Of a DNA stretch of 64,000 nucleotides, positions 33,622-48,559 are shown piece by piece. The stretch comes from Polaribacter sp. L3A8. GTDB taxonomy: Bacteria > Bacteroidota > Bacteroidia > Flavobacteriales > Flavobacteriaceae. Made by a program: the position numbers and the translations under genes. The notes beneath the pieces were generated by a model. It searched no databases. It had not been told where the DNA came from and saw only the letters and a list, made by a program, of their open reading frames with translations. The stretch is from assembly GCF_009796785.1 (NCBI RefSeq), contig NZ_CP047026.1, positions 372,001 to 436,000 of the forward strand, given 5' to 3'. The stretch's first letter is position 1. Every line of letters begins with the position of its first letter.

Positions 33622-34096
33622 GAAGATACTAGAATCAAAAAAATATGAAACAGTTAATTATTAGTATTTTATTTAAAATTAAAAACATCAATTAAAATTA
33701 AGGTTAACTTGTTGTTAAATAGTGTTTTACTTTTTGTTTGATGTTTATTATTAAAAAGTTATTTTTTTAATAACAAACTTTTTCAATTTTTTAAGAGAAT
33801 AAACGCTATCTTTTGTAGGTATTTTAAGAAAGTACCTAAATGCAGGTTTTTTAATTAAAAAAAGCGCTTTTATTGTTGTTTTTTATAGATTTCACTATTG
33901 TTTTCGTCTTTTTAACAAATAAATGCATATCAATTATATCCTTATTGTTGATTTATTAAAGATTTGGTATCAATTTATTATTATTACTGTAAAAAAATAA
34001 ATGAAATAAAATTACTATTACAATAATCGCAACATAATTTAAAAATCATTGATATTTTCATAAAACTAATTTATATTTACTAAAAAATTATAAGAT
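33622..34096. other. 475-base AT-rich intergenic region
   Basis: Lies between divergent genes (DMT transporter and ATP-grasp). Very AT-rich, with repeated runs of T and A; no convincing open frame, RNA gene or repeat was seen. The right end contains the promoter listed at 34049-34079. Confidence 0.6.
34049..34079 (+). promoter_or_regulatory. candidate promoter of the ATP-grasp / alpha-E pair
   Basis: TTG (34049-34051), 20 bases, TATATTTA (34072-34079), one mismatch to TAnnTTTG. It ends 17 bases before the TTG start codon and supports that start. Confidence 0.45.
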
Positions 34097-35563
34097 TTGA
34101 AAAAAACTACAACACTACCGCTATTTTCAACTTACGAATTAGATTCTAGATTTTATGATGAGCTCTTTAATAAGAATAATGAAATAAGAGAAGTTTATAA
34201 AACTTTGTATAATTTATTTGGATCTTATTCTGTGTCAGAATTCGATCGTTTAAATAAAAAGGCAAAAGATTCTTTTTTTAATTTAGGAATTACGTTTCAG
34301 GTTTATGGTGAGAAGGAGGTAAAAGAGAAAATTTTTCCTTTCGATTTATTTCCAAGAATTATTAATAATAAAGAATGGACGACCATAGAAAAAGGTGTTT
34401 TGCAAAGAAGCAAAGCGCTAAATCTTTTTCTTTGGGACCTTTATCATGATCAGAAAATTATAAAACAAGGTATTGTACCAGAAGATTTAATTAAATCTTC
34501 TGTCAACTTTTTACCTCAAATGATTGGGTTAGATCCTCCTGGAGGAATTTATAATCATATTTCTGGTACCGATTTAATAAAACATTCTGATGGTAATTAT
34601 TATGTTTTAGAAGATAATATTAGATGTCCTTCTGGTGTGAGTTATGTCATTGGAAATAGAACTGCTGTAAAACACGCGTTGTTTGGTGTTTTTAATCAAT
34701 ACAATGCACATACTGTTGTAGATTATGGTTCTAAGTTATTAGAAACCATGGAATCTGTAAAACCGAATGGAGTAGATGCTCCTGTTTGTGTTATTATTAC
34801 GCCTGGTGTTTATAACTCTGCTTATTATGAGCATTCCTTTTTAGCAAAACAAATGGGTGTTGTTTTAGTAGAAGGACGAGATCTGTTTGTAGAAAATGGA
34901 TTTGTATATATGAGAACTATTTATGGGCCAGAAAAAGTAGATGTTATTTATAGAAGAATAGATGATTTATTTATAGATCCTCTAGTCTTTAAAAAGGATT
35001 CTATGTTGGGAGTTCCTGGGTTGTTTTCTGTGTATTTAAAAGGAAACGTAACTTTAGTAAATGCACCCGGTACAGGTGTTGCAGATGATAAAGCTGTTTA
35101 TACGTATATGCCAGAAATTATTAAATACTATTTAGATGAAGAACCTATTTTAAATAATGTACACACCTATCATTGTAGTAGAAAAGACGAATTAAAGTAT
35201 GTGCTAGAAAACATTGATAAGTTGGTTGTAAAACCTGTTGATGAGTCTGGTGGATATGGAATTTCTATTGGTAGTAAATTAACAAAAGAAGAAATTGAAA
35301 AAGTTAAAAAGACAATATTAGCAGACCCTAGAAAATACATAGCACAACCTATTATGTCTTTATCTACACACCCAACGTATGTGGATGAAAATGAGTCTTT
35401 TGAGTCTAGACACGTAGATTTAAGAACTTTTACTTTATTAGGAAAAGACATCGATTTTGTATTAAAAGGAGGGTTGTCTAGAGTTGCGCTTAAAAAAGGA
35501 AATTTAATAGTAAATTCATCTCAAGGTGGTGGTTCAAAAGACACTTGGGTTTTAAAAAAATAA
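34097..35563 (+). CDS. circularly permuted ATP-grasp protein
   Basis: 488 residues from a TTG start, in a frame whose N-terminus (KKTTTLPLFSTYELDSRFYDE) has no ATG. Its family (COG2308, DUF404/DUF407) is predicted to be a circularly permuted ATP-grasp ligase that activates a carboxylate as acyl-phosphate and joins it to an amine. Visible hallmarks are QMIGLDPPGGIYNHISGTDL, YVLEDNIRCPSGVSYV, VEGRDLFVENGFVYMRT and the C-terminal ATP-site strands VVKPVDESGGYGISIG and HVDLRTFTLLG. It is directly followed by the alpha-E gene. A related, longer ATP-grasp fused to alpha-E lies at 37609. Substrates are unknown. Confidence 0.9.
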   Translation: MKKTTTLPLFSTYELDSRFYDELFNKNNEIREVYKTLYNLFGSYSVSEFDRLNKKAKDSFFNLGITFQVYGEKEVKEKIFPFDLFPRIINNKEWTTIEKGVLQRSKALNLFLWDLYHDQKIIKQGIVPEDLIKSSVNFLPQMIGLDPPGGIYNHISGTDLIKHSDGNYYVLEDNIRCPSGVSYVIGNRTAVKHALFGVFNQYNAHTVVDYGSKLLETMESVKPNGVDAPVCVIITPGVYNSAYYEHSFLAKQMGVVLVEGRDLFVENGFVYMRTIYGPEKVDVIYRRIDDLFIDPLVFKKDSMLGVPGLFSVYLKGNVTLVNAPGTGVADDKAVYTYMPEIIKYYLDEEPILNNVHTYHCSRKDELKYVLENIDKLVVKPVDESGGYGISIGSKLTKEEIEKVKKTILADPRKYIAQPIMSLSTHPTYVDENESFESRHVDLRTFTLLGKDIDFVLKGGLSRVALKKGNLIVNSSQGGGSKDTWVLKK

Positions 35564-35569
35564 AGAAAT

Positions 35570-36619
35570 ATGTTAGCAAGAGTAGCCAATAACCTTTTTT
35601 GGATGGGAAGATATATTGAACGTTCAGAGCACTTAGCAAGGTTTTTAAACGTCAATTATTTTTCTTCTTTAGATGCACCAGATGAATTATCACAATCTAG
35701 ACAATTTGTATTGCGTTCTGTAATGTACATGTCTGCAAATGAAATTATAGATGCAGATATTACATTAGATGAAGAAGCTGTTTTATTTAATGTTGGGTTA
35801 AATTTAGAAAAACCTTATTCTGTTGTAAATACATTTGCAAATGCGCATGAAAATGCTCGAAGTTCTAGAGATTTAATTTCCACTGAATTATTTGAATGTA
35901 TTAATACCGTTAACCATAGAATTAAAGCATATCCAATAGAGCTATTTGTAAAAAGTGGCTTGTATGATTTTACGTCTATTGTAACACAGTCTGCATCAGA
36001 TGTAAGAAGTAAAATTAAAAGTACACTTTTACATGATGAAGTATATGCTATTATTATGTTGGGAGTTTATTTAGAAAGAGCCATTCAGGTATCAAGAATT
36101 ATAAATTCTAAACTAAGTGATGTTGCTGCTTCAAAAGAACTTTATGGAGATTTAGCAGATAATTACCAATGGTCTACACTTTTAAAATGTGTTTCTACGC
36201 ACGATATGATGCGTCGTTACTATAAAAAAACGCCTACTAGAAAAACAGCCTTAGAGTTTATTATTTTAAATGAAAAATGCCCAAGATCTATAAAAAATTG
36301 TTTAGCTCAAATTTATAAATATATCTGTATTATTTCTAAAGATAAAGTGATATCAAATGATTCTGCCGCTTTTTTAATTGGTAAAATGAAAGCTGAGTTT
36401 GAGTATAAATTATTTACTGATATCGATGATAATTTAGAGGAGTTTATTGCTGATTTAATAGAGAAATTAGTATTAATAGCATCTAAACTAGAAGAGAATT
36501 ATTTTAATATTACAGACCCTAGTTTTGTAAAAGAACAACAAGGAAGTAATGATGAAAAAATAGAGGAAGAAGAAGTGAAAGCTGAAAAGGAAGTAACTCA
36601 AAAGCAAAAACAAAAATAA
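35570..36619 (+). CDS. alpha-E domain protein (DUF403)
   Basis: 349 residues, all-helical alpha-E domain (COG2307) starting MLARVANNLFWMGRYIERSEHLARFLN; the NLFWMGRYIER motif is the family hallmark. The domain spans roughly 1-310 and a highly charged Glu/Lys tail (SNDEKIEEEEVKAEKEVTQKQK) ends the protein. It begins 6 bases after the ATP-grasp gene, and the same pair is fused in one chain at 37609-40179, strong evidence that the two proteins act together. Its activity is unknown; it has been proposed to work with ATP-grasp and transglutaminase-like proteins. Confidence 0.92.
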   Translation: MLARVANNLFWMGRYIERSEHLARFLNVNYFSSLDAPDELSQSRQFVLRSVMYMSANEIIDADITLDEEAVLFNVGLNLEKPYSVVNTFANAHENARSSRDLISTELFECINTVNHRIKAYPIELFVKSGLYDFTSIVTQSASDVRSKIKSTLLHDEVYAIIMLGVYLERAIQVSRIINSKLSDVAASKELYGDLADNYQWSTLLKCVSTHDMMRRYYKKTPTRKTALEFIILNEKCPRSIKNCLAQIYKYICIISKDKVISNDSAAFLIGKMKAEFEYKLFTDIDDNLEEFIADLIEKLVLIASKLEENYFNITDPSFVKEQQGSNDEKIEEEEVKAEKEVTQKQKQK

Positions 36620-36630
36620 GTGTTTATATT

Positions 36631-36673
36631 CTTTTTGTTCATTTTGATAAAAAATATCAAAATGAACAAAAAG
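36631..36673. terminator. bidirectional terminator, 19-bp perfect stem
   Basis: CTTTTTGTTCATTTTGATA (36631-36649), loop of five A, then its exact complement (36655-36673). It separates the two converging halves of the ATP-grasp locus. Confidence 0.88.
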
Positions 36674-36686
36674 ATAATTTTTTAGT

Positions 36687-37607
36687 TTAAAATTGAGTTT
36701 GATACTGACTTTGATTATTTTTTGTTGGTCTTAAATCTACAGAAACATCCATTTTGCTTTTACCTGTACTATAAATTACACCTTTTAATGGAGGTACATC
36801 ATAATAATCTCTACCATGTGCAACTACAATATGTTGATTTTTTGGTATTTGATTGTTGGTAGGGTCAAAATCTACCCAACCCAAAGTAGGTATAAATACA
36901 GAAAACCAAGCATGAGAAGCATCTGTACCAATCAATTTTTCTTTACCTTCTGGTGCTACTGTTTCTATATAACCACTAACATATCTTGCAGGTAAGCCCA
37001 TAGACCTAACACAAGCAATGGCAATTTGCGCAAAATCTTGGCAAACACCTTTTTTCTCTTTCATTACTTCTTTTAATGGTGTAGCTATGTTTGTAAAACC
37101 AGAAACAAAATCAAAATCGGTAAAAATACGTTGCATTAATTCATAAGAAGCTTCATATAAAGATCTTTCTGGTTTAAAAGAAACCAATGCATATTCTTTA
37201 ATTACAGCACTCATATCAGAAATTAATGGAGAGCCTAATACAAATTGTCTTGCTTCAATAATGTCTGGTTGTATTCCTTTTAATAATTTTAAAGATTCTT
37301 CTACAGTCACTTTTTTTCCTTCCACAAAATTTTCTCCTTCTATTTGAAGGTTGTAATCTCTAGCAACTTTACTACGTGCGATAACAATTAGTTCTTCATG
37401 ATTTTGCTGTATAGAAAAGCGTGTAACCGTATTACCAAAAAAATCTATTCTTTCAGAAATGTCTGTCGGAGTCGGACTTATTTCTAATACGTATTCTAAA
37501 ACAGCTTGTCCTTTAAAACTTTTAGGTTTTAAGGTGGTTATGTTATGGCAAAAGGAAGCTCCGTTTTCATAACTATATTTTGTTTTGTGCCAAAGATCAA
37601 AAATCAT
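36687..37607 (-). CDS. transglutaminase-like cysteine peptidase-fold protein
   Basis: 306 residues. A bacterial transglutaminase N-terminal beta domain (about 1-100, FDLWHKTKYSYENGASFCHN) precedes the papain-fold transglutaminase core with Cys189 (KKGVCQDFAQIAIACVRSMG), His232 (ASHAWFSVFIP) and Asp248 (WVDFDPTNN). All three catalytic residues are present. No signal peptide is visible, so it is cytoplasmic. It starts 1 base after the ATP-grasp/alpha-E fusion, an extremely tight spacing. It may hydrolyse or transfer peptides made by the ligases; whether it is a peptidase, amidase or transferase is open. Confidence 0.92.
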   Translation of the reverse strand: MIFDLWHKTKYSYENGASFCHNITTLKPKSFKGQAVLEYVLEISPTPTDISERIDFFGNTVTRFSIQQNHEELIVIARSKVARDYNLQIEGENFVEGKKVTVEESLKLLKGIQPDIIEARQFVLGSPLISDMSAVIKEYALVSFKPERSLYEASYELMQRIFTDFDFVSGFTNIATPLKEVMKEKKGVCQDFAQIAIACVRSMGLPARYVSGYIETVAPEGKEKLIGTDASHAWFSVFIPTLGWVDFDPTNNQIPKNQHIVVAHGRDYYDVPPLKGVIYSTGKSKMDVSVDLRPTKNNQSQYQTQF

Positions 37608-37608
37608 A

Positions 37609-40179
37609 TTAATTAGAAATTTTTCTATCTACCAACTGTTTCTGTTGTTGAGAGTGGTTAAAGTATGTGTCTGAAACAGACAAAGAAGTAGTGTGTAATA
37701 AATCGCTTAAATCAGATAATAATTCATCTAAATTCTTACGCATATTAGAAGTTTCATCAATTTCTAAAATTTCTTCTAATGATAAACTTTGTATTTTGTC
37801 AATAACTGATTCAATATTTTTTTGACAATCGGTCATTTCTATCGATACATTTGTATTAGGTAATCTATCAATATCTTTCTTCATTCGTTGTACTTGGTAC
37901 ATTAAAGATCTAGAATACTCTTTATCTAAAAGTAATAATTTCAGTACGTTTTCTATACTTAAATAAGATTTGTAACTGTATCTATAAATATTTAAACTTT
38001 CATGACTATTTAAAAGCGATTCTAAAATTTCGTATTCTAATTCTTCATTATAATTTACAATAATTAAAGATCTAAATTTTTCTATGGTCATAGAAGCTTG
38101 CTCTACCTGCAAACCAATAAAGTAGAGTAGTAGTCCTTGTCTTACTAAAATACTTTCTTCTGTTAAAGCCATAAATGCAATTAGTCTGGTAATAATTTTA
38201 TCAAAAAATTTAGATAAGGTAGTAGCAGAGTAATCTTCTTCTTCTTTTAATTTGACCAATTGTTTCTGTATTCCATCAAAAACGCGCCACATATCTTTAG
38301 ACCACAAGTTTCTTAAAGAATAATAAGAGTTGTTAAAGCTTTGCATAGACTGTGCAAAACCACCTATTCTTTGGGTATCTAAAGTAAGTGCTTTAATTTC
38401 TTTTAACGGATTTTTTAAAGCTTCTTCTGCTTTTTCTCCTGTAAAACCAGGAAATGTAGACGTTATGTTAGTAATAGATTGAAATAATATTTTTAAACTT
38501 TCTGATTCTGATTTCCGATCGTTGTTATATTGTACATGCGTCATTTGGTTTAAAACCATTCTTAAATACCTTGCAGTAAACAATGTTCTACCTAAATATC
38601 TACCAGACCAATATAAATTTTCGGCAGTATTACTTGGCACATCATTAATACTTTCTGTGTGCTTAGAGGTTGTTTTGTTCCAAGAATAGTTTTGTAAATA
38701 ATTTTGTTTTTTATCACAAACAATCCAAAAATCTTTACTGGTTCCTCCTCTATGGTTAGATACAAATAAATCTTCTCGTTCTGTTGCAACCCTAACTAAA
38801 CCACCAGGCATTACGCTATAACCATTATCTTTTGCTATAGAAAAAGTTCTACATAAAATTTTACGAGGTTCTAACTTGTCTTCTACAAAATTTGGTGCTG
38901 TAGAAAAAGATATTTTTTCTTGAGCAACAAATCTATTTGGGTTTTCTAATATTTCTGCTTTTAAATCTTTAAGTTCTTCTTTACTTAAAAACTCACAGAA
39001 ATAAATATGTTCTCTATGCGATCTGTCAATTCTTTTTACCACATAAGAGGGCAGGTCTTCTAGTACATGTTTTCGTTCTTTTTCTTGTCCGCACCACCAC
39101 GAAGCAATTTGTGGTAAAATCAATTTTTCTTTTAAGAAGAATTCACAGATGTTTTCCATAAATGGAATAAGGGCAGGGTTTTCTAAAATACCACTTCCAA
39201 TAGGGTTTACGATGGCAACATTTTGTAAACGAACTACTTCTAATAAACCTGCAACTCCTAAATAAGAGTCTTCCTTTAATTCTAAAGGATCCATAAAATT
39301 ATCATCTACACGTCTTAAAATAACATCAACTTGTTTTAATCCCTTTAAAGATTTTAACCAAACTTTACCGTGTCTTACCACTAAATCATTTCCTTTTACC
39401 AAAGGATGCCCTAAAAATGAAGATAAAAAAGAATGTTCAAAATAAGTTTCATTATGTGGTCCTGGTGTTAAAATAACCACCATTGGGTTTTCTTTATTAG
39501 ACGGAGCAACATTCAACAATAATTTGTTAAAATCATTAAAGAAAGTAGAAGGTTGCTTTACATTGATGTTGTTAAATATTTCAGGTATAATTTTACTTGT
39601 AGAAAATCTATTTTCTAAAGCATATCCCATACCAGAAGGAGCTTGTGTTCTATCATTAACAACCCACATTCTTCCATCTGGACCTCTCGCTAAATCTACA
39701 GCATGTACCAATAATTGTTTTGCTGTTTTATATTCTATTTGATCGCAAGAACGTAAAAAACCTCTATGTGCATAAATTACTTCTGGCGGAATAATTCCGT
39801 TTTTAAGCAATTCACGTTTACCATATAAATCTTTTAAAATTAGGTCTAAAAGCTCAGATCTTTGTTGAATTCCTTTCTCAACTTCTGTCCATTCATTTTG
39901 ATGAATCATAAACGGCACAACATTTAAATTCCAAGGTCTATTTAATCCTTTAGGATCATTATATACATTGTAAGTAACACCGTTTTCTGCTAAAAGCCAA
40001 TCTATATCAGCTTGTTTAGAAGCTAATTCTTTGGGACCAATTTTTTGTAAATTGTCTAATAAAATTTTCCAATCCGATTTTTCGTCCATCTTAGAGATTA
40101 ATAATTCGTCATATTTCGTTTTATTTAAAAAATAATCATATAAAATTGTCTTTTCAACTTTCTTGTCTTCTATCATCAT
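37609..40179 (-). CDS. circularly permuted ATP-grasp / alpha-E fusion protein
   Basis: 856 residues. Residues of about 60-500 are the circularly permuted ATP-grasp (DPKGLNRPWNLNVVPFMIHQ, VVNDRTQAPSGMGYALENR, VVRHGKVWLKSLKG, RRVDDNFMDPLELKEDS, YVVKRIDRSHREHIYF) and about 525-840 the alpha-E domain (NTAENLYWSGRYLGRTLFTARYL). Both domains correspond to the separate genes at 34097 and 35570, but sequence identity is low and the fusion's glycine-rich ATP-site differs (IDRSHREHIYF versus DESGGYGISIG), so it may be a diverged or even inactive subunit. It lies between the two transglutaminase-like genes, with gaps of 1 and 26 bases. Confidence 0.92.
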   Translation of the reverse strand: MMIEDKKVEKTILYDYFLNKTKYDELLISKMDEKSDWKILLDNLQKIGPKELASKQADIDWLLAENGVTYNVYNDPKGLNRPWNLNVVPFMIHQNEWTEVEKGIQQRSELLDLILKDLYGKRELLKNGIIPPEVIYAHRGFLRSCDQIEYKTAKQLLVHAVDLARGPDGRMWVVNDRTQAPSGMGYALENRFSTSKIIPEIFNNINVKQPSTFFNDFNKLLLNVAPSNKENPMVVILTPGPHNETYFEHSFLSSFLGHPLVKGNDLVVRHGKVWLKSLKGLKQVDVILRRVDDNFMDPLELKEDSYLGVAGLLEVVRLQNVAIVNPIGSGILENPALIPFMENICEFFLKEKLILPQIASWWCGQEKERKHVLEDLPSYVVKRIDRSHREHIYFCEFLSKEELKDLKAEILENPNRFVAQEKISFSTAPNFVEDKLEPRKILCRTFSIAKDNGYSVMPGGLVRVATEREDLFVSNHRGGTSKDFWIVCDKKQNYLQNYSWNKTTSKHTESINDVPSNTAENLYWSGRYLGRTLFTARYLRMVLNQMTHVQYNNDRKSESESLKILFQSITNITSTFPGFTGEKAEEALKNPLKEIKALTLDTQRIGGFAQSMQSFNNSYYSLRNLWSKDMWRVFDGIQKQLVKLKEEEDYSATTLSKFFDKIITRLIAFMALTEESILVRQGLLLYFIGLQVEQASMTIEKFRSLIIVNYNEELEYEILESLLNSHESLNIYRYSYKSYLSIENVLKLLLLDKEYSRSLMYQVQRMKKDIDRLPNTNVSIEMTDCQKNIESVIDKIQSLSLEEILEIDETSNMRKNLDELLSDLSDLLHTTSLSVSDTYFNHSQQQKQLVDRKISN

Positions 40180-40205
40180 AATTCACACTACCTATAAAAA
40201 TTTCC

Positions 40206-43200
40206 TTACTTTTTTCTTAAATCTAAAGTATAAGGAAATTCAAAATTAACAGGCAACTCTTTAAACTTAAATCGTTTAGAGCTACTGTTTTGTTCTACAC
40301 TTCTACTTGTGCTTTCTGTATTTGGGTTGATACTTTCTACAGGGTCAATTTCACCTTGTGTGTGTCCAAATTCCCAGAAGCGATTTATTCGTCTTGATTC
40401 TGCTTCATAACTATTTACTGGATATTCGTCATAAGATCTACCTCCTGGATGTGCCACAAAATAAGTACAACCACCAATAGAGCGTTTGTTCCAAGTATCT
40501 ACAATATCAAAAACAAGCGGAGTATCTACAGGTATTGTTGGGTGTAAAGCAGAGAAAGGATCCCAAGCTTTATAACGCACACCTGCAACATATTCTCCAT
40601 GAACACCAGTACTATTTAATTGCACTTTAACACCGTTACAACTTAATACAAAGCGGTCTTCATTAAAATTAGAAACTTTTACTTGTAGTCTTTCTAAAGA
40701 AGAATCTACATATCTAGCAGTTCCTCCACCAGTCATTTCTTCACCTAAAACATTCCAAGGTTCTATACCAGCTCTTAATTCTAAATGAATATTATTAATG
40801 TCTACCATCCCATGTAATGGGAATCTAAATTCGAAAAATGGATCGAACCAATCTTCTTTAAAGTCGTAACCCGCTTTATTTAATTGATCTACAATGTCTT
40901 TAATGTCTTCTCTTACATAATGTTCTATTAAGAATTTATCATGTAATTCTGTTCCCCAACGTACTAAATTATGTTCGTAAGGTTTTTTCCAAAACCAAGC
41001 TACTAAGGTTCTAACCAATAGCATTTGTACCAAACTCATTTTTGGATGCGGAGGCATATCAAAACCACGTAACTCTAAAATACCTAATCTTCCTGTAGAA
41101 GAATCTGGCGAGTATAGTTTATCAATACAAAATTCTGCTCTGTGCGTATTACCCGTTAAATCGGTTAATAAATGTCTAAACAATCTATCGGTTAACCAAA
41201 AAGGAACTTCTCCATCTTTCGGAATTTGATTAAAGGCAATTTCTAACTCGTATAAGTTGTCTAAACGAGCTTCATCTACTCTTGGTGCCTGACTTGTTGG
41301 CCCCACAAAAGAACCAGAGAATAAATACGTTAATCCTGGGTGATGTTGCCAAAAAGTTAACAAACTACGTAACAAACTTGGTTTACGTAATAAAGGACTG
41401 TCTGCAGGACTTGTACCTCCTAAAGTAACGTGGTTTCCACCACCAGTTCCTGTATGTTTACCATCTAGCATAAACTTTTCTGTACCTAATCTTGCTTTTT
41501 TAGCCTCGTTGTAAAAAGTAAATGTGTTTTTACATAAGTCTTCCCAATTGGTAACTGGGTGTACATTAACCTCTATAACAGCAGGGTCTGGTGTTATTTT
41601 TAGAGATTCTAATCTATTGTCATGAGGAGGTTCATAACCTTCCATAATAACAGGTACATTTAATTCTTTTGCTGTAATTTCTATGGCAGCAATTAAATCT
41701 AAAAACATTTCTGCCGTTTCTAAAGGAGGTAAAAATAAATACAATTTATCTTCTCTAATTTCTGCACAAAGTGCAGTACGTACAAAATAGTTTGGTTGGT
41801 TTAATTCTAGTCCAAAATCTAAAAAATCTTGATATCTTTTCTTTACAATATTTTTAAAACTTGGTAAACGTTTCTTTTTAGAAAATAAATCGGGTTCATA
41901 AATTGGAAAAACTTCATGTTCTGGTTTTTCCATTAATGAATCTAAAGGCAATCTTAATCCCATAGGAGAATTCCCTGGAGTTAAAAAGATGTGCTGTCTT
42001 CTAAAAGTCCAAGCACTGGTAAACCATTTATCTTCTGTTTTATTTAAAGGAAGTAAATGACCAACAGGTGTAGATGCTCCTTTTTCATAAATTTCATGTA
42101 ATTTTTTACGCGCTAAAGAACCGTCTTTGTCCTTTGCAGGATCTATATCTATAGGTAAATTTCCTTGTTCCCATAAATGATAAAAAGGATCTTCGTAACT
42201 TGGTAAAATATGTTCTGTAGAAACACGTAAATATTTGGTAAGTGTTTCTAAAAATAATTTATCAGAATTTTCTGGTACAATAGGGTTATCAGCATAGCTA
42301 GATAAATACTTTTTGTTATACCAAATTGGTCTACCATCTTTACGCCAGCAAATTTCTATTTGCCATCTTGGTAAAGGCTCTCCAGGATACCATTTTCCTT
42401 GTGCATGATGTAAAACAGCTCCGTTACCAAATTTGTCATATAAACCTTTGGTTAAATCGCCAGCTAATTTTCTTTTATTTGGTCCATCTGCGGTTGTATT
42501 CCACTCTGGAGATTCTAAATCATCAATAGAAATAAAGGTAGGTTCGCCACCCATTGTTAATCTTACATCACCCTTTTCTAATTGCTTCTCTACTTTATTA
42601 CCTAGTTTGTATACTTCTTTCCATTGTTCTTCTGTATACGGTTTTGTAACTCTTGGAGATTCTAAAATTCGTGTCACTTTGTTCTCAAAAAAGAATTCAG
42701 TTTCACATTTATCTGTCATTCCAGAAACTGGCGCAGCACTTTCAAAAGAAGGTGTACAGGCTAACGGAATATGACCTTCACTAGCCAAAAGACCAGAAGT
42801 AGCGTCAAAACCAATCCAACCAGCACCTGGCAAATAAACTTCTGCCCAAGCGTGTAAATCTGTAAAATCTTCTTCTGGACCAGAAGGGCCATCTAAAGAC
42901 TTTTCATCAGATTTTAATTGCACTAAATATCCAGAAACAAAACGTGCTCCAAAACCTAAGTGACGTAGAGTTTGCACAAATAACCATGCATAATCTCTAC
43001 AAGATCCATTTTTCTGATTCAAAGTTTCTTCACAACTTTGAACACCCGGATCCATTCTAATATTATAATTTAAAAACTCGTAAATTTTCTGGTTGATATC
43101 AATCAAAAAATAAATAGTTTTTCTAGGCGTATAATCTAATGTTTTTATAAATTCTTCTAATAATTTCCCTTTATCTGTAATTTCTAAATAAGGCTGTAAC

Positions 43201-43538
43201 TCTTTCTTAACTGTTTCTGTATATACAAACGGATATTCTTCGGCATATTCTTCAATAAAGAAATCAAAAGGGTTTATCGTTTTTAAATCTGCAATAATCT
43301 CAACATCAATAGACATTTCATCCGTTTTCTCAGGAAAAACCAAACGAGCAACATAATTACCAAAAGGATCTTGTTGCCAGTTAAAAAATTGTTCTTCTGG
43401 CGTAATTTTAATTGAGTACGATTCTATGGGAGTTCTAGAGTGTGGTGCTGGTCTAAGTCTAAAAATATGAGGAGATAAGGATACTTTTCTATCATACTTA
43501 TAAGTAGTCTTGTGTGATATTACGATTTTTAATGCCAT
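40206..43538 (-). CDS. transglutaminase-like / DUF2126 fusion protein (COG4196 type)
   Basis: 1110 residues. Residues 1-300 repeat the transglutaminase layout (N-terminal beta domain; Cys180 in NGSCRDYAWLFVQTLRHLG; His229 in TDLHAWAEVYLPG; Asp245 in WIGFDATSG). From about 328 (LTMGGEPTFISIDD) to 1080 follows DUF2126. Within it EVNVHP (656-661) and GTGGGNHVTLGG (697-708) look like metal/ATP-binding motifs of glutamine-synthetase or GCS-like amidoligases; I infer that without a profile search. It begins the minus-strand unit. With the ATP-grasps it gives this locus two predicted ligase types and two transglutaminase-type enzymes, a full toolkit for peptide synthesis and processing. Confidence 0.93.
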   Translation of the reverse strand: MALKIVISHKTTYKYDRKVSLSPHIFRLRPAPHSRTPIESYSIKITPEEQFFNWQQDPFGNYVARLVFPEKTDEMSIDVEIIADLKTINPFDFFIEEYAEEYPFVYTETVKKELQPYLEITDKGKLLEEFIKTLDYTPRKTIYFLIDINQKIYEFLNYNIRMDPGVQSCEETLNQKNGSCRDYAWLFVQTLRHLGFGARFVSGYLVQLKSDEKSLDGPSGPEEDFTDLHAWAEVYLPGAGWIGFDATSGLLASEGHIPLACTPSFESAAPVSGMTDKCETEFFFENKVTRILESPRVTKPYTEEQWKEVYKLGNKVEKQLEKGDVRLTMGGEPTFISIDDLESPEWNTTADGPNKRKLAGDLTKGLYDKFGNGAVLHHAQGKWYPGEPLPRWQIEICWRKDGRPIWYNKKYLSSYADNPIVPENSDKLFLETLTKYLRVSTEHILPSYEDPFYHLWEQGNLPIDIDPAKDKDGSLARKKLHEIYEKGASTPVGHLLPLNKTEDKWFTSAWTFRRQHIFLTPGNSPMGLRLPLDSLMEKPEHEVFPIYEPDLFSKKKRLPSFKNIVKKRYQDFLDFGLELNQPNYFVRTALCAEIREDKLYLFLPPLETAEMFLDLIAAIEITAKELNVPVIMEGYEPPHDNRLESLKITPDPAVIEVNVHPVTNWEDLCKNTFTFYNEAKKARLGTEKFMLDGKHTGTGGGNHVTLGGTSPADSPLLRKPSLLRSLLTFWQHHPGLTYLFSGSFVGPTSQAPRVDEARLDNLYELEIAFNQIPKDGEVPFWLTDRLFRHLLTDLTGNTHRAEFCIDKLYSPDSSTGRLGILELRGFDMPPHPKMSLVQMLLVRTLVAWFWKKPYEHNLVRWGTELHDKFLIEHYVREDIKDIVDQLNKAGYDFKEDWFDPFFEFRFPLHGMVDINNIHLELRAGIEPWNVLGEEMTGGGTARYVDSSLERLQVKVSNFNEDRFVLSCNGVKVQLNSTGVHGEYVAGVRYKAWDPFSALHPTIPVDTPLVFDIVDTWNKRSIGGCTYFVAHPGGRSYDEYPVNSYEAESRRINRFWEFGHTQGEIDPVESINPNTESTSRSVEQNSSSKRFKFKELPVNFEFPYTLDLRKK

Positions 43539-44117
43539 ATATACAGATATTATGAGTGCAAATTAGCGAGTTAATTTTAGATAACTTATTATAAATAAAG
43601 CGAAAAAAAACGCGGACAAATTTAAGTATTTATTATTCTAAATACGCTTAAATTTTTCAATAAAAATGAGTCTTAAAAAGATTATCACTAAATAATAGCT
43701 CAATTTTTAATATCATTTTGTTTCGATTATATTTTTTATAAATTTACTAATAAAAAAATGTAAAACCTTAATTAATTACATTGTATTTGTTTATTTTATT
43801 GATGTAGTAATAATATTTACGCAAATTTATTGTTAAAATGATAATATAGTGATTTGATGTTGTTTTATCAGAGAAAAAGAATTTAACGATATATAAAGTA
43901 GAAGACATTTAATTATTCAAATTATTTATTTGCAAAAATTTAAATAAAACCTCATGATCTTAGATGTGTAAACAAGAATTATTTTGGAGTTGTAATTATA
44001 ATTGTCACTATAACTACTTTGGATACTTATAAAATAGGTTTTTAAAATTGACAAATTATCTGTTTCCTTCTAATTTTTACCTGAATTAAAAAAACAGCTA
44101 TCATCGACAACCCCTAA

Positions 44118-44444: not shown

Positions 44445-44849
44445 ATGAATATTTCACATATAGAGCATTTAGGTATTGCTGTTGATAATTTAGAGGAATC
44501 AATAAAATACTATGAAGAGGTCTTAGGATTGAAGTGTTATTCTATAGAAGAGGTTGCTGACCAAAAGGTTAAGACAGCCTTTTTTTTGGTAGGTAATACA
44601 AAAATTGAACTATTAGAAAGTACTTCTCCGGATGGACCCATTGGTAAGTTTATAGAAAAGAAAGGAGCTGGCATTCATCATATTGCTTTTGCCGTCCCCA
44701 ATGCAACAGAAGCGTTAAAAACAGCAGAGAAACGAGGAGTGAGGTTGGTTGATAAAGTTTCTAGAAAAGGAGCAGAAGGACTAAATATTGGTTTCTTACA
44801 TCCAAAATCTACATTAGGAGTACTTACAGAACTTTGTTCTAAAGAATAA
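44445..44849 (+). CDS. mce: methylmalonyl-CoA epimerase
   Basis: 134-residue vicinal-oxygen-chelate enzyme interconverting (2R)- and (2S)-methylmalonyl-CoA. HIEHLGIAVDNLEESIKYYEE at the N-terminus and GAGIHHIAFAVPN near residue 75 supply the metal His residues, with IELLESTSPDGPIG between. Length is typical. It opens the methylmalonyl-CoA cluster, preceding the decarboxylase genes, and connects the mutase product with the decarboxylase substrate stereochemistry. Confidence 0.96.
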   Translation: MNISHIEHLGIAVDNLEESIKYYEEVLGLKCYSIEEVADQKVKTAFFLVGNTKIELLESTSPDGPIGKFIEKKGAGIHHIAFAVPNATEALKTAEKRGVRLVDKVSRKGAEGLNIGFLHPKSTLGVLTELCSKE

Positions 44850-44875
44850 TCGACAAGAAAAATACATAAATAATA

Positions 44876-46435
44876 ATGGCAAATCAAGATAAAATTAACG
44901 AGCTCATAGAAAAAAGAGCAGAAGCTAAAATGGGGGGAGGAGAAAAACGTATCGATTCTCAACACGCCAAAGGTAAATTAACAGCACGAGAACGTATAGA
45001 TATTCTTTTAGACGAAGATAGTTTTGAAGAGTTTGACATGTTTGTAACCCACCGAACAAAATCTTTTGGGTTGGATAAACAAATTTATCTTTCTGATGGT
45101 GTGGTTACAGGGCACGGTACAATAGACGGAAGAATTGTTTATGTCTTTGCGCAAGATTTTACTGTTTTCGGAGGTTCATTGTCTGAAACCTATGCTTTAA
45201 AGATTTGTAAGGTAATGGATATGGCTATGAAAATTGGGGTTCCGGTTATCGGATTAAACGATTCTGGTGGCGCACGTATTCAAGAGGGAGTAAGGTCTTT
45301 AGCTGGTTATGCAGAAATTTTTCAAAGAAACATTATGGCATCTGGGGTCATTCCTCAAATTTCGTCAATTTTAGGACCTTGTGCTGGTGGAGCGGTTTAT
45401 TCTCCGGCATTAACAGACTTTACTATTATGACAGAAAATACAAGTTATATGTTTGTTACTGGTCCAAAAGTAGTAAAATCGGTAACTGGAGAAGTGGTTA
45501 CAGCAGAAGAACTAGGAGGTGCTAAAATTCATTCTACTAGATCTGGTGTTTCTCATTTCTTAGCAGCAAATGATGAAGAAAATTTATTGCTCGTTCGCAA
45601 GTTGTTAAGTTATATGCCTGCAAACAATTTAGAAGAACCACCAATAATTGCATGTAATGATCCTATTGATCGATTAGATGATGCTTTAAATGAAATTATT
45701 CCAGAAAATCCAAATCAACCTTATGACATTGTTGATGTAATATCAATACTTGCAGACAACGGAGAGTTTACAGAAGTGCATAGAAATTATGCACGTAATA
45801 TTTGTGTAGGTTTTGCAAGGTTTAATGGTCGTCCGGTTGGTATTGTTGCCAATCAACCAAAATATTATGCAGGTGTTTTAGATATTGATGCATCAAGAAA
45901 AGCGGCTCGTTTTGTACGTTTTTGTGATGCTTTTAATATTGCAATTGTAACGCTTGTTGATGTTCCAGGATTCTTACCAGGTACTGGTCAAGAATATGGA
46001 GGAATTATTTTACATGGAGCAAAATTATTGTTTGCTTATGGAGAAGCTACGGTACCTAAAGTAACTATTACTTTGCGTAAATCTTATGGTGGTGCGCACG
46101 ATGTAATGAGTTGCAAGCAACTAAGGGGTGATGTAAATTATGCATGGCCAACTGCAGAAATTGCGGTAATGGGAGCAAAGGGAGCTGTTGAGGTTTTAGA
46201 AGGATCTAATATTAGAAAAATAGAAGATGCTGGAGAAAAACAAGAGTACATTCAGAAAAAAGAGGATGAGTATACAGAGAAGTTTGCCAATCCTTATATG
46301 GCAGCAAAATATGGGTTTATAGATGATGTAATTGAGCCAAGAAACACCCGTTTTAGAATTGTTAGAGCTTTAGAATTACTTCAAAATAAAAAAGATGTAA
46401 ACCCTCCAAAAAAACACTCAAATATTCCATTATAA
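44876..46435 (+). CDS. mmdA: methylmalonyl-CoA decarboxylase / propionyl-CoA carboxylase carboxyltransferase subunit
   Basis: 519 residues, carboxyltransferase of the Na+-pumping methylmalonyl-CoA decarboxylase; propionyl-CoA carboxylase beta is homologous. Biotin-carboxyltransferase hallmarks: [51 protein letters not shown] and [12 protein letters not shown]. The next three genes encode the gamma/delta, biotin carrier and membrane beta subunits, and no biotin carboxylase gene is present, which favours the decarboxylase. It transfers the carboxyl of (S)-methylmalonyl-CoA to biotin, releasing propionyl-CoA. Its stop overlaps the next start by one base. Confidence 0.94.
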
Positions 46436-46794
46436 TGACATATCTACTAATAAATACAAACACAATAAGTGAAGGTTACGTTATCTTATTTACTGGGTTA
46501 TTCATTGTTTTTAGTGCCTTGGTAACACTTGCACTTGTTTTTAATTATGGATTGCCTGTAATGCTTTATGTGTATAACATAATTACCAAAGGAAAGGACA
46601 AAAAAGTTAGTGAAATTAAAATAAAAAAAGATAGCAATTTCACAGGAGAAATTTCTGCGGTTATAGGAGCTGCAATTCACATGTATACAAGTGAACAGCA
46701 TGATCATGAAAGCGCAATTTTAACAATTAAACAAGTTAAAAAAACATATTCACCTTGGAGTTCTAAAATTTACGGAATTCAAAATAGATTATAA
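46435..46794 (+). CDS. OadG-like small membrane subunit of sodium-pumping decarboxylase
   Basis: 119 residues, one N-terminal membrane helix (about 15-45, ILFTGLFIVFSALVTLALVFN) followed by a polar tail. The tail contains EISAVIGAAIHMYTSEQHDHE and SPWSSKIYGIQNRL. This is the pattern of gamma (OadG) or delta (MmdD) subunits, which tether the carboxyltransferase to the membrane beta subunit. It overlaps mmdA by 1 base and is 3 bases from the carrier gene. Family assignment depends partly on this context. Confidence 0.88.
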   Translation: MTYLLINTNTISEGYVILFTGLFIVFSALVTLALVFNYGLPVMLYVYNIITKGKDKKVSEIKIKKDSNFTGEISAVIGAAIHMYTSEQHDHESAILTIKQVKKTYSPWSSKIYGIQNRL

Positions 46795-46797
46795 CAA

Positions 46798-47217
46798 ATG
46801 AAAAGCTATAAATTTAAAGTAAACGATAACGGTTACACCGTTAATATAAAGTCACATGAAGACAATATTATTAACCTAGAAGTTAATGGTACTTTATATG
46901 AGGTGAAAATGAACGAGGAGATTAAAAAATCTAAAACTCCTACTTTAGTTCGTGCTGCATCGCTTAGACCTGCAGAGCCTCTAAAAGTAAATCCTAAGTC
47001 TCAAAAAACACGTATTGTAGCCCCAATTCCTGGTGTTGTATTATCTATCGATGTAAAAGTAGGAGATACACTTAAGGTAGGAGACAGAGTGCTTGTTTTA
47101 GAAGCAATGAAAATGGAAAATAGTATTGTTTGTGAAAATGCTGGTACAATTACGGCTATAAAAATTAGCGTTGGTCAGCAAGTATTGCATGATGAATTAA
47201 TGATAGAACTAGAATAA
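46798..47217 (+). CDS. mmdC: biotin carboxyl carrier subunit
   Basis: 139 residues. An N-terminal extension (about 1-60) precedes a Pro/basic linker and a biotinyl-lipoyl domain (KTRIVAPIPGVVLSID). The biotin-attachment motif LEAMKMEN places the biotinyl lysine at residue 105. It shuttles the carboxyl group from the carboxyltransferase to the membrane beta subunit. It starts 3 bases after the OadG-like gene and is 10 bases from mmdB. A matching biotin ligase must be elsewhere. Confidence 0.95.
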   Translation: MKSYKFKVNDNGYTVNIKSHEDNIINLEVNGTLYEVKMNEEIKKSKTPTLVRAASLRPAEPLKVNPKSQKTRIVAPIPGVVLSIDVKVGDTLKVGDRVLVLEAMKMENSIVCENAGTITAIKISVGQQVLHDELMIELE

Positions 47218-47227
47218 AATACAAAAC

Positions 47228-48559
47228 ATGAAAAAAGTAATATTAATATTTTGTGTTCTATCTTTATTGATCTTTATAAGACCAGTATTAGGTTTTGACA
47301 CAAATTCGAACACCGACAGCTTAAACGATGCTACGGTTTCTACTACGCAGGTTGATAAAGCATCACCACAACAAGGTGTTTTTGATGGAGCGCTTAAAGG
47401 GATTAAAACATTTTATGGGTACACCGGTTTTGCAAATGCAACATCAGGAAACTTAATAATGATTATAATCGGAATTGTATTTATCTACTTAGGTATTAAA
47501 TATGATTACGAGCCCTTACTGTTAATACCTATTGGTGCTGGTGTTATTATAGGAAACATCCCTTTTGTCGCCGGAAATCAAACCGGAATCTATGAGACAG
47601 GATCTGTGTTAAACTTTCTTTATTTTGGGGTGGTAAAAGGAATTTATCCGCCATTAATTTTTTTAGGAATTGGTGCAATGACAGATTTTTCATCTTTAAT
47701 TGCAAATCCAAAATTAATGCTTTTAGGTGCTGCTGCTCAAATTGGGGTTTTTGCTACTTTTATGGGAGCATTGTATTTAGGGTTTAACCTTCCAGAAGCA
47801 GGTGCAATTGGTATTATTGGTGGTGCAGATGGACCAACAGCTATTTTTCTTTCTTCTAAATTAGCCAATGGAGTTAATATAATGGCAGATGGTACTACGG
47901 TAAAAAATCTAATTGGGCCTATTGCTATTGCAGCCTATTCTTACATGGCATTGGTGCCTGTAATTCAACCTCCTTTAATGAGAATGTTAATCTCTAAAGA
48001 GGATAGAAAAATTAAAATGAAACCACCAAGAGCTGTTAGTCAAAAGGAAAAAATGATTTTCCCTGTGGTAGCTTTAATTTTAACAACGTTCATTTCTCCG
48101 AGTGCATTACCGTTATTAGGTATGTTATTCTTTGGTAATTTACTTAAAGAATCTGGCAGAACAGAAAGGTTAGCAGATACAGCAAGAACTAAATTAATAG
48201 ACATTGTAACCATTTTACTAGGGGTTACTGTAGGTGCTTCTACACAGGCAGACATCTTTATTACTAAAGATTCTTTGTTAATATTTGGTTTAGGAGCCAT
48301 ATCATTTGTGATTGCTACTTGTGGAGGTTTATTATTTGCTCGATTTATGAATAGATTCTTAAAAGGCGATAATAAAATTAATCCATTAATTGGTGCAGCA
48401 GGTGTATCTGCAGTACCAGATAGTGCAAGAGTTGTACATACTGAGGGATTAAAATATGATTCCAGTAATTATTTATTAATGCACGCCATGGCGCCAAATG
48501 TAGCGGGAGTTATTGGGTCTGCAATTGCTGCGGGGATTATACTAAGTTTCTTAGGATAA
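47228..48559 (+). CDS. mmdB: sodium ion-translocating decarboxylase beta subunit
   Basis: 443-residue integral membrane protein with a hydrophobic signal-like N-terminus and about ten or eleven membrane segments. The Na+-pump hallmarks GGADGPTAIFLSSKLA and QADIFITKD and the C-terminal ALPLLGMLFFGNLLKESG segment match OadB/MmdB/GcdB. It decarboxylates carboxybiotin and couples this to Na+ export. In OadB an Asp in the GGADGP region is central to Na+ transport; it is present here. The N-terminal 60 or so residues (NTDSLNDATVSTTQ) are longer than in classical OadB. It ends the decarboxylase set, 58 bases before the CoA-transferase. Confidence 0.95.
   Translation: MKKVILIFCVLSLLIFIRPVLGFDTNSNTDSLNDATVSTTQVDKASPQQGVFDGALKGIKTFYGYTGFANATSGNLIMIIIGIVFIYLGIKYDYEPLLLIPIGAGVIIGNIPFVAGNQTGIYETGSVLNFLYFGVVKGIYPPLIFLGIGAMTDFSSLIANPKLMLLGAAAQIGVFATFMGALYLGFNLPEAGAIGIIGGADGPTAIFLSSKLANGVNIMADGTTVKNLIGPIAIAAYSYMALVPVIQPPLMRMLISKEDRKIKMKPPRAVSQKEKMIFPVVALILTTFISPSALPLLGMLFFGNLLKESGRTERLADTARTKLIDIVTILLGVTVGASTQADIFITKDSLLIFGLGAISFVIATCGGLLFARFMNRFLKGDNKINPLIGAAGVSAVPDSARVVHTEGLKYDSSNYLLMHAMAPNVAGVIGSAIAAGIILSFLG

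Follow-up and report, generated by a model that had tools for sequence, protein, structure and literature searches.

The 64,000-nt stretch of the Polaribacter sp. L3A8 genome analysed here (the window; the genome is a single contig of 4.22 Mb) carries, at positions 34097-43538, a set of five genes: an ATP-grasp gene (gS) and an alpha-E gene (aE) on the forward strand, then a transglutaminase-like gene (TG), an ATP-grasp/alpha-E fusion gene (FUS), and a gene joining a transglutaminase-like domain to DUF2126 (the giant) on the reverse strand, in two converging units. The set belongs to a known and widespread type of system and probably makes and unmakes a peptide-like molecule. The catalytic site seems to be gone from FUS, which probably assists gS instead of serving as a second enzyme. 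The five open reading frames (ORFs), their strands, and the converging arrangement were as given in the initial annotation of this DNA, as judged from the ORF list and Pfam, and the Pfam matches of gS, aE, and FUS agree with its statement that the ATP-grasp and alpha-E domains occur once separately and once fused.

Relatives of the giant were collected by a scan of named genomes, in which at least 576 were confirmed and the best 80 loci were kept. The initial annotation had further proposed two ATP-grasp ligases acting in sequence; this was not supported, because neither the catalytic ExN motif nor the Gly triad is present in any of the FUS copies compared. In gS, CP_ATPgrasp_2 of Pfam was matched with 525 bits, and nearly the whole length of the protein was aligned with the chain of 3N6X (phmmer E 2.1e-159), which has ExN at the aligned place. 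E172 and N174 were present in 71/71 separate ATP-grasp copies; ExN, the Gly triad, Lys379, and Asp159 were kept in all 42 separate copies of the giant loci. The CP_ATPgrasp profile, ExN, and the Lys and Asp positions, by which an ATP-grasp ligase is recognised (PMC4431377; PMC numbers here and below stand for excerpts of the papers), are all found in gS, in which the catalytic Lys and Asp were assigned by strand position and the linker Lys was not placed. Thus gS is predicted to be the ATP-grasp of the set that has the catalytic residues, and is the candidate ligase. FUS matched CP_ATPgrasp_2 with 488 bits and Alpha-E with 180 bits. The ExN pair was found in 0/53 fused copies: E and N were both gone in 53/53, and Arg stood at the place of N174 in 50/53. 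The triad at Gly385/386/388 was GGG in 42/42 separate copies of the giant loci vs 0/52 fused copies, and DDK330-332, H439/D441, and NSSQ473-476 were not kept as sets in the fused copies. Among 119 positions near-invariant in the separate copies, 0/17 site positions were kept in at least 80% of the fused copies, compared with 60 of the other 102; this list of 17 was partly chosen after the alignment, which counts against the comparison (ExN and the Gly loop were known beforehand). ExN was also absent from the 120 closest fused homologues among the matches listed, and from two fused copies of genomes without a giant, of which the own separate gS retains the motif. Accordingly, the site is lost in one (FUS) of the two ATP-grasps and not in both, the case that the initial annotation had set against its own proposal. 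There are 29 conserved positions specific to the fused copies, and therefore the FUS protein is maintained; in its structure model the ATP-grasp fold is predicted to be intact (the structural match covers model residues 20-488), with 3N6X as the nearest fold.

Several surviving residues weigh against a complete loss of function. The Lys379 and Asp159 positions were kept in 47/53 and 44/53 fused copies, R443 and R286/R287 in most of them, and Gly386 alone in about half, so that nucleotide binding or unusual chemistry is possible for FUS. Together with the predicted fold and new conserved residues at the site, the Lys and Asp positions would suit a second working ligase, in which FUS would be catalytically active as an ATP-grasp despite its rearranged site and would use a substrate of its own; moreover, ExN is naturally variable, N being occasionally replaced by other polar residues and one family having ExGD (PMC4431377). 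Given the loss of E and N, of the Gly triad, and of the three further residue groups, we regard two ligases in sequence as improbable; judging from these alignments, FUS is very probably not a ligase.

The locus had been called duplicated. The presence of two ATP-grasps is real; a recent copy was not borne out. Over 423 residues, gS is 35% identical to the ATP-grasp part of FUS. In a tree of 124 ATP-grasps, a branch with SH-aLRT 100 divided the 53 fused copies from the 71 separate ones, the latter including copies with and without Anbu or a giant nearby. The tree was reconstructed with a quick method under the LG+G4 model and gave several long-branch warnings; labels and tree are not wholly independent, because the assignment of copies as fused-type or separate-type was made beforehand from their bit scores against gS and FUS of the window. 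With this identity and the two separate clades, the two ATP-grasps appear to be old lineages and not products of a recent duplication.

The other proteins of the set also retain their characteristic residues. aE matched Alpha-E of Pfam with 221 bits, an alpha-E gene followed gS in 41/41 gS genes of the 80 loci, and W11, R14, R18, G165, and E169 were common to separate and fused alpha-E (94/94). TG, with Bact_transglu_N and Transglut_core, has a Cys-His-Asp triad (C189, H232, D248) that was found in 55/55 aligned copies, and its gene came next after 50 of 51 complete FUS genes. The giant has the same two domains followed by DUF2126 (PF09899, 1258 bits), named 'Putative amidoligase enzyme' in Pfam; its triad (C180, H229, D245) was present in 81/81 aligned giants. 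The motifs EVNVHP and GTGGGNH, on which a second ligase type had been suggested for DUF2126, are indeed present. GTGGGNH was exact in 119/120 and EVN.HP in 83/120 of the closest giant homologues among the matches listed; E656, N658, P661, and H703 were identical in 81/81 aligned giants, as were many other DUF2126 residues. The listed relatives were 53-95% identical to the giant, the nearest of them being from Polaribacter (95% and 92%). In hhalign, DUF2126 gave no match to GS, GCS2, or Amidoligase_2, and controls among these families were silent as well in 5/6 comparisons; the structure model of the giant, built with seven sequences as input, had a pLDDT of 36. DUF2126 is kept as a putative second ligase.

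Short DUF2126 proteins (about 710 aa) without the transglutaminase domain were seen in 5 of the 35 DUF2126-bearing genomes of the gammaproteobacterial sample described below. In L183, a separate transglutaminase-like gene adjoins the short gene on the opposite strand; in L182 (G462:C104), three DUF2126 genes (709, 1118, and 1168 aa) lie one after another on one 9.9-kb contig.

The set appears to be more than a chance association, because the same genes recur together in loci of several phyla. Judged by record titles, the best 80 giant loci span Bacteroidota, Pseudomonadota, Campylobacterota, Desulfuromonas, Poribacteria, Verrucomicrobia, and Acidobacteriota. For the 51 loci whose two flanks each exceed 9 kb, the fusion was found in 37, separate alpha-E in 29, both in 20, an Anbu-like gene in 15, and none of these in 5. 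Within the genus (58 genomes, 45 of them with a completeness of 90% or more and a contamination of 5% or less), the giant was present in nine, once as a fragment at a contig end; exactly these nine have separate and fused alpha-E, the fused form being confined to them, and 47/58 have neither giant nor alpha-E. Two further congeneric genomes (L163 and L164) carry only separate alpha-E, within a gS-aE-TG set that belongs to another lineage (its gS is about 51% identical); in the 12 kb fetched there, no Anbu-like gene was noticed, and no search aimed at Anbu was made. All five genes were together in the seven fetched congeneric relatives, with differing flanks and in two arrangements, three like the window and four with gS-aE on the other side of the giant. 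In a phylum sample of 118 genomes, the giant was found in 3, alpha-E in 40, and Anbu-like genes in 6. Among the control genomes, Synechococcus elongatus gave matches to both DUF2126 and alpha-E. The genomes of 39 of the 80 loci had separate alpha-E in 39/39 (one partial match) and fused alpha-E in 35/39; one of the four without it has a truncated fused-type gene at a contig end. Among 185 gammaproteobacterial genomes (the class of the centre genome G147), the giant or fragments of it occurred in 35, all with separate alpha-E, and FUS in 15, of which 13 had the giant; here the fused call was an open frame of at least 830 aa with at most 250 bits, and only the two giant-less cases were checked by sequence. 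One of the loci (L184) has gS-aE-FUS-TG without a giant. A hypergeometric test of FUS with the giant among 55 alpha-E genomes gave only 0.028, with relatedness ignored. The initial annotation had counted independent occurrence of the genes against itself: this holds for alpha-E (37 of the 40 alpha-E genomes of the phylum sample had no giant) and fails for the giant, which was accompanied by alpha-E in every genome examined for both (3, 9, 39, and 35 genomes). On these counts, the giant goes with gS-aE, and FUS is an accessory part, because only 13/35 giant genomes have FUS and 2/15 FUS genomes lack the giant.

Anbu is a relative of the proteasome. A role in making or modifying peptides was proposed by Iyer et al. 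2009 (as cited by PMC6376114 and PMC5666114) for gene sets in which an ATP-grasp and an alpha-E gene stand next to each other together with a transglutaminase-like gene, often also with Anbu; this type of gene set, as recognised in the initial annotation, is upheld for the window. In both the five-gene set and the Anbu operon, members of the gS and aE families are neighbours and are accompanied by transglutaminase-like proteins; as differences, no Anbu was found in the genome that carries the set, and the set adds the ATP-grasp/alpha-E fusion and the giant. The search for Anbu in the host genome (G000) was made at E 1e-3 with the Anbu-like protein of L108, and the same query matched 6/118 genomes. 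In one rival explanation, once suggested for the Anbu operon (PMC6376114), proteins would be tagged with a peptide by gS-aE (and DUF2126), and the transglutaminases would remove the tag or transfer it. An Anbu-like gene lies within the fetched stretch of 17/80 giant loci. Against tagging stand, besides the negative search for Anbu in the host genome, the 25 largest neighbour clusters, where no protease besides Anbu was recognised (by eye, from the first residues only), and the three intergenic gaps: their 13 small ORFs, 11 of them without any match, gave no convincing precursor, substrate-peptide, or tag gene, as the initial annotation had remarked of substrate peptides nearby. A precursor gene adjoining the ligase, as in graspetide-type RiPP systems, was sought among the same ORFs: two short frames, which overlap each other in a conserved stretch of non-coding appearance, had weak matches to one or two congeneric genomes. 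We consider protein tagging rather unlikely.

Glutathionylspermidine and trypanothione synthetase/amidases have the amidase on the same chain, and it is of another family than TG. No amidase domain is fused to gS or FUS: only ATP-grasp and Alpha-E were found with Pfam at E 0.01. Conjugation of polyamines or other amines, in which gS would couple a polyamine to a peptide of glutamyl or glutathione-like type and TG would hydrolyse the conjugate, as in the E. coli glutathionylspermidine synthetase/amidase, can be considered from the structures: 3N6X, a relative of gS known here by its title (putative glutathionylspermidine synthase, Methylobacillus flagellatus), has the ExN that FUS lacks, and the FUS model shares 9-13% identity with glutathionylspermidine/trypanothione synthetase/amidases and eukaryotic-type glutathione synthetases. 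However, glutathione synthetases are matched equally well or better, a fold is uninformative on the substrate, and no polyamine gene was recognised by eye in the recurring neighbour clusters; this explanation is unlikely.

Relatives of the set in Burkholderia and Pseudomonas respond to nitrogen supply. In Burkholderia cenocepacia H111, the cluster I35_5080-83, which shares DUF404/407, DUF403, TG, and a large transglutaminase-like protein with the set, is NtrC-dependent (-6.0 to -9.4 fold); unlike the set, it has no ATP-grasp/alpha-E fusion in the excerpt describing it (PMC5491218). In Pseudomonas putida on nitrate vs ammonium, PP_2685 (bacterial proteasome, beta subunit; presumably Anbu) and PP_2688 (circularly permuted ATP-grasp) are up by log2 4.44 and 3.99, respectively (PMC8050072). 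A 2017 paper in Structure states that Anbu-operon proteins are non-essential without stress and that Anbu is up under nitrogen limitation in P. putida (PMC5666114). These Burkholderia and Pseudomonas relatives are induced by limiting or poor nitrogen, and by analogy a nitrogen-related peptide or amine conjugate is the most likely product.

Gene content, conserved residues, the motif loss in FUS, its predicted fold, and the co-inheritance were obtained directly; our preferred reading of them, for and against which we see the balance as even, is a self-contained module of amide-bond synthesis and cleavage. In step 1, gS with its helical partner aE would activate a carboxylate as acyl phosphate with ATP and link it to an amine, as is done by glutathione and glutathionylspermidine synthetases, which have the same fold as the gS family. 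In step 2, FUS would not ligate but would serve the gS-aE ligase or TG as a subunit with a scaffold, substrate-holding, or regulatory role. In step 3, the weakest, DUF2126 of the giant might extend or cap the product as a second ligase. In step 4, the transglutaminase-like domains would serve as thiol amidases or transamidases releasing, trimming, or attaching the product, and one module would therefore both make and unmake it. More specifically, FUS may be a conserved pseudo-ATP-grasp that forms a heteromeric ligase with gS-aE, as the subunit that carries the substrate or regulates, in a module making an undescribed, nitrogen-regulated class of peptides or amine conjugates across many phyla; we hold this joint proposal tentatively and regard it as less likely than not. 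Speaking against the preferred reading of the module are the patchy presence of FUS given above, a gS relative for which only phosphate release from ATP is reported and no interaction among the operon proteins was detected (PMC6376114), and nitrogen control known from Proteobacteria alone.

The ATP-grasp/alpha-E/transglutaminase system is widespread and strongly conserved, and no product was found in the literature located. The question is narrowed to parts (gS as candidate ligase, FUS as putative non-catalytic partner, the giant as dependent enzyme), because an ATP-grasp with its catalytic residues kept, the co-occurrence of the giant with the separate pair, and unit-wise presence in one genus were found; the last also provides closely related strains with and without the whole set. 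The coordinates are collected in Table 1.

Table 1. Coordinates of the five genes, their domains and motifs, and associated features (window positions unless a locus is given)
Feature	Position	Strand	Description
gS	34097-35563	+	488 aa; stand-alone circularly permuted ATP-grasp, predicted active carboxylate-amine ligase
aE	35570-36619	+	349 aa; stand-alone alpha-E helical protein adjoining gS
TG	36687-37607	-	306 aa; transglutaminase-like protein
FUS	37609-40179	-	856 aa; ATP-grasp/alpha-E fusion, predicted pseudo-ligase
Giant	40206-43538	-	1110 aa; transglutaminase-like domain and DUF2126
gS ExN motif (E-D-N)	codons 172-174, 34610-34618	+	motif as defined in PMC4431377
FUS ATP-grasp region	residues 89-465, 38785-39915	-	Pfam match
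FUS N-D-R replacing ExN	codons 175-177, 39649-39657	-	alignment of fused copies
FUS alpha-E region	residues 515-840, 37660-38637	-	Pfam match; helical in structure model
Giant, transglutaminase-like part	about residues 1-270, 42729-43538	-	C180, H229, D245
Giant, DUF2126 part	residues 276-1108, 40215-42713	-	putative second amidoligase; Pfam PF09899
Probable promoter/leader of gS	33952-34096	+	conserved stretch directly upstream of gS
Probable promoter/leader of giant	43540-43845	-	conserved stretch directly upstream of giant
Short DUF2126 proteins	L183:7421-9547 (G483), L182:360-2489 (G462); also G342, G347, G453

The probable promoter or leader of gS was 82-83% identical to two congeneric genomes and 74%, over part of its length, to a third; that of the giant was 76% identical to two. 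No model of NCBIfam or PADLOC matched any of the five proteins (PADLOC, which covers known anti-phage defence, 0/5 at E 0.01). A metagenome bin labelled Helicobacter pylori PMSS1 (L047) carries the giant, the fusion, and TG, and is probably a misnamed environmental bin. Downstream of the set, at 44445-48559, lie genes for a 134-aa protein resembling methylmalonyl-CoA epimerase, a carboxyltransferase-like protein, and an OadB-like protein (all named by eye), perhaps a sodium-pumping decarboxylase set; within the limits of the stretches fetched, three congeneric genomes show this order too.
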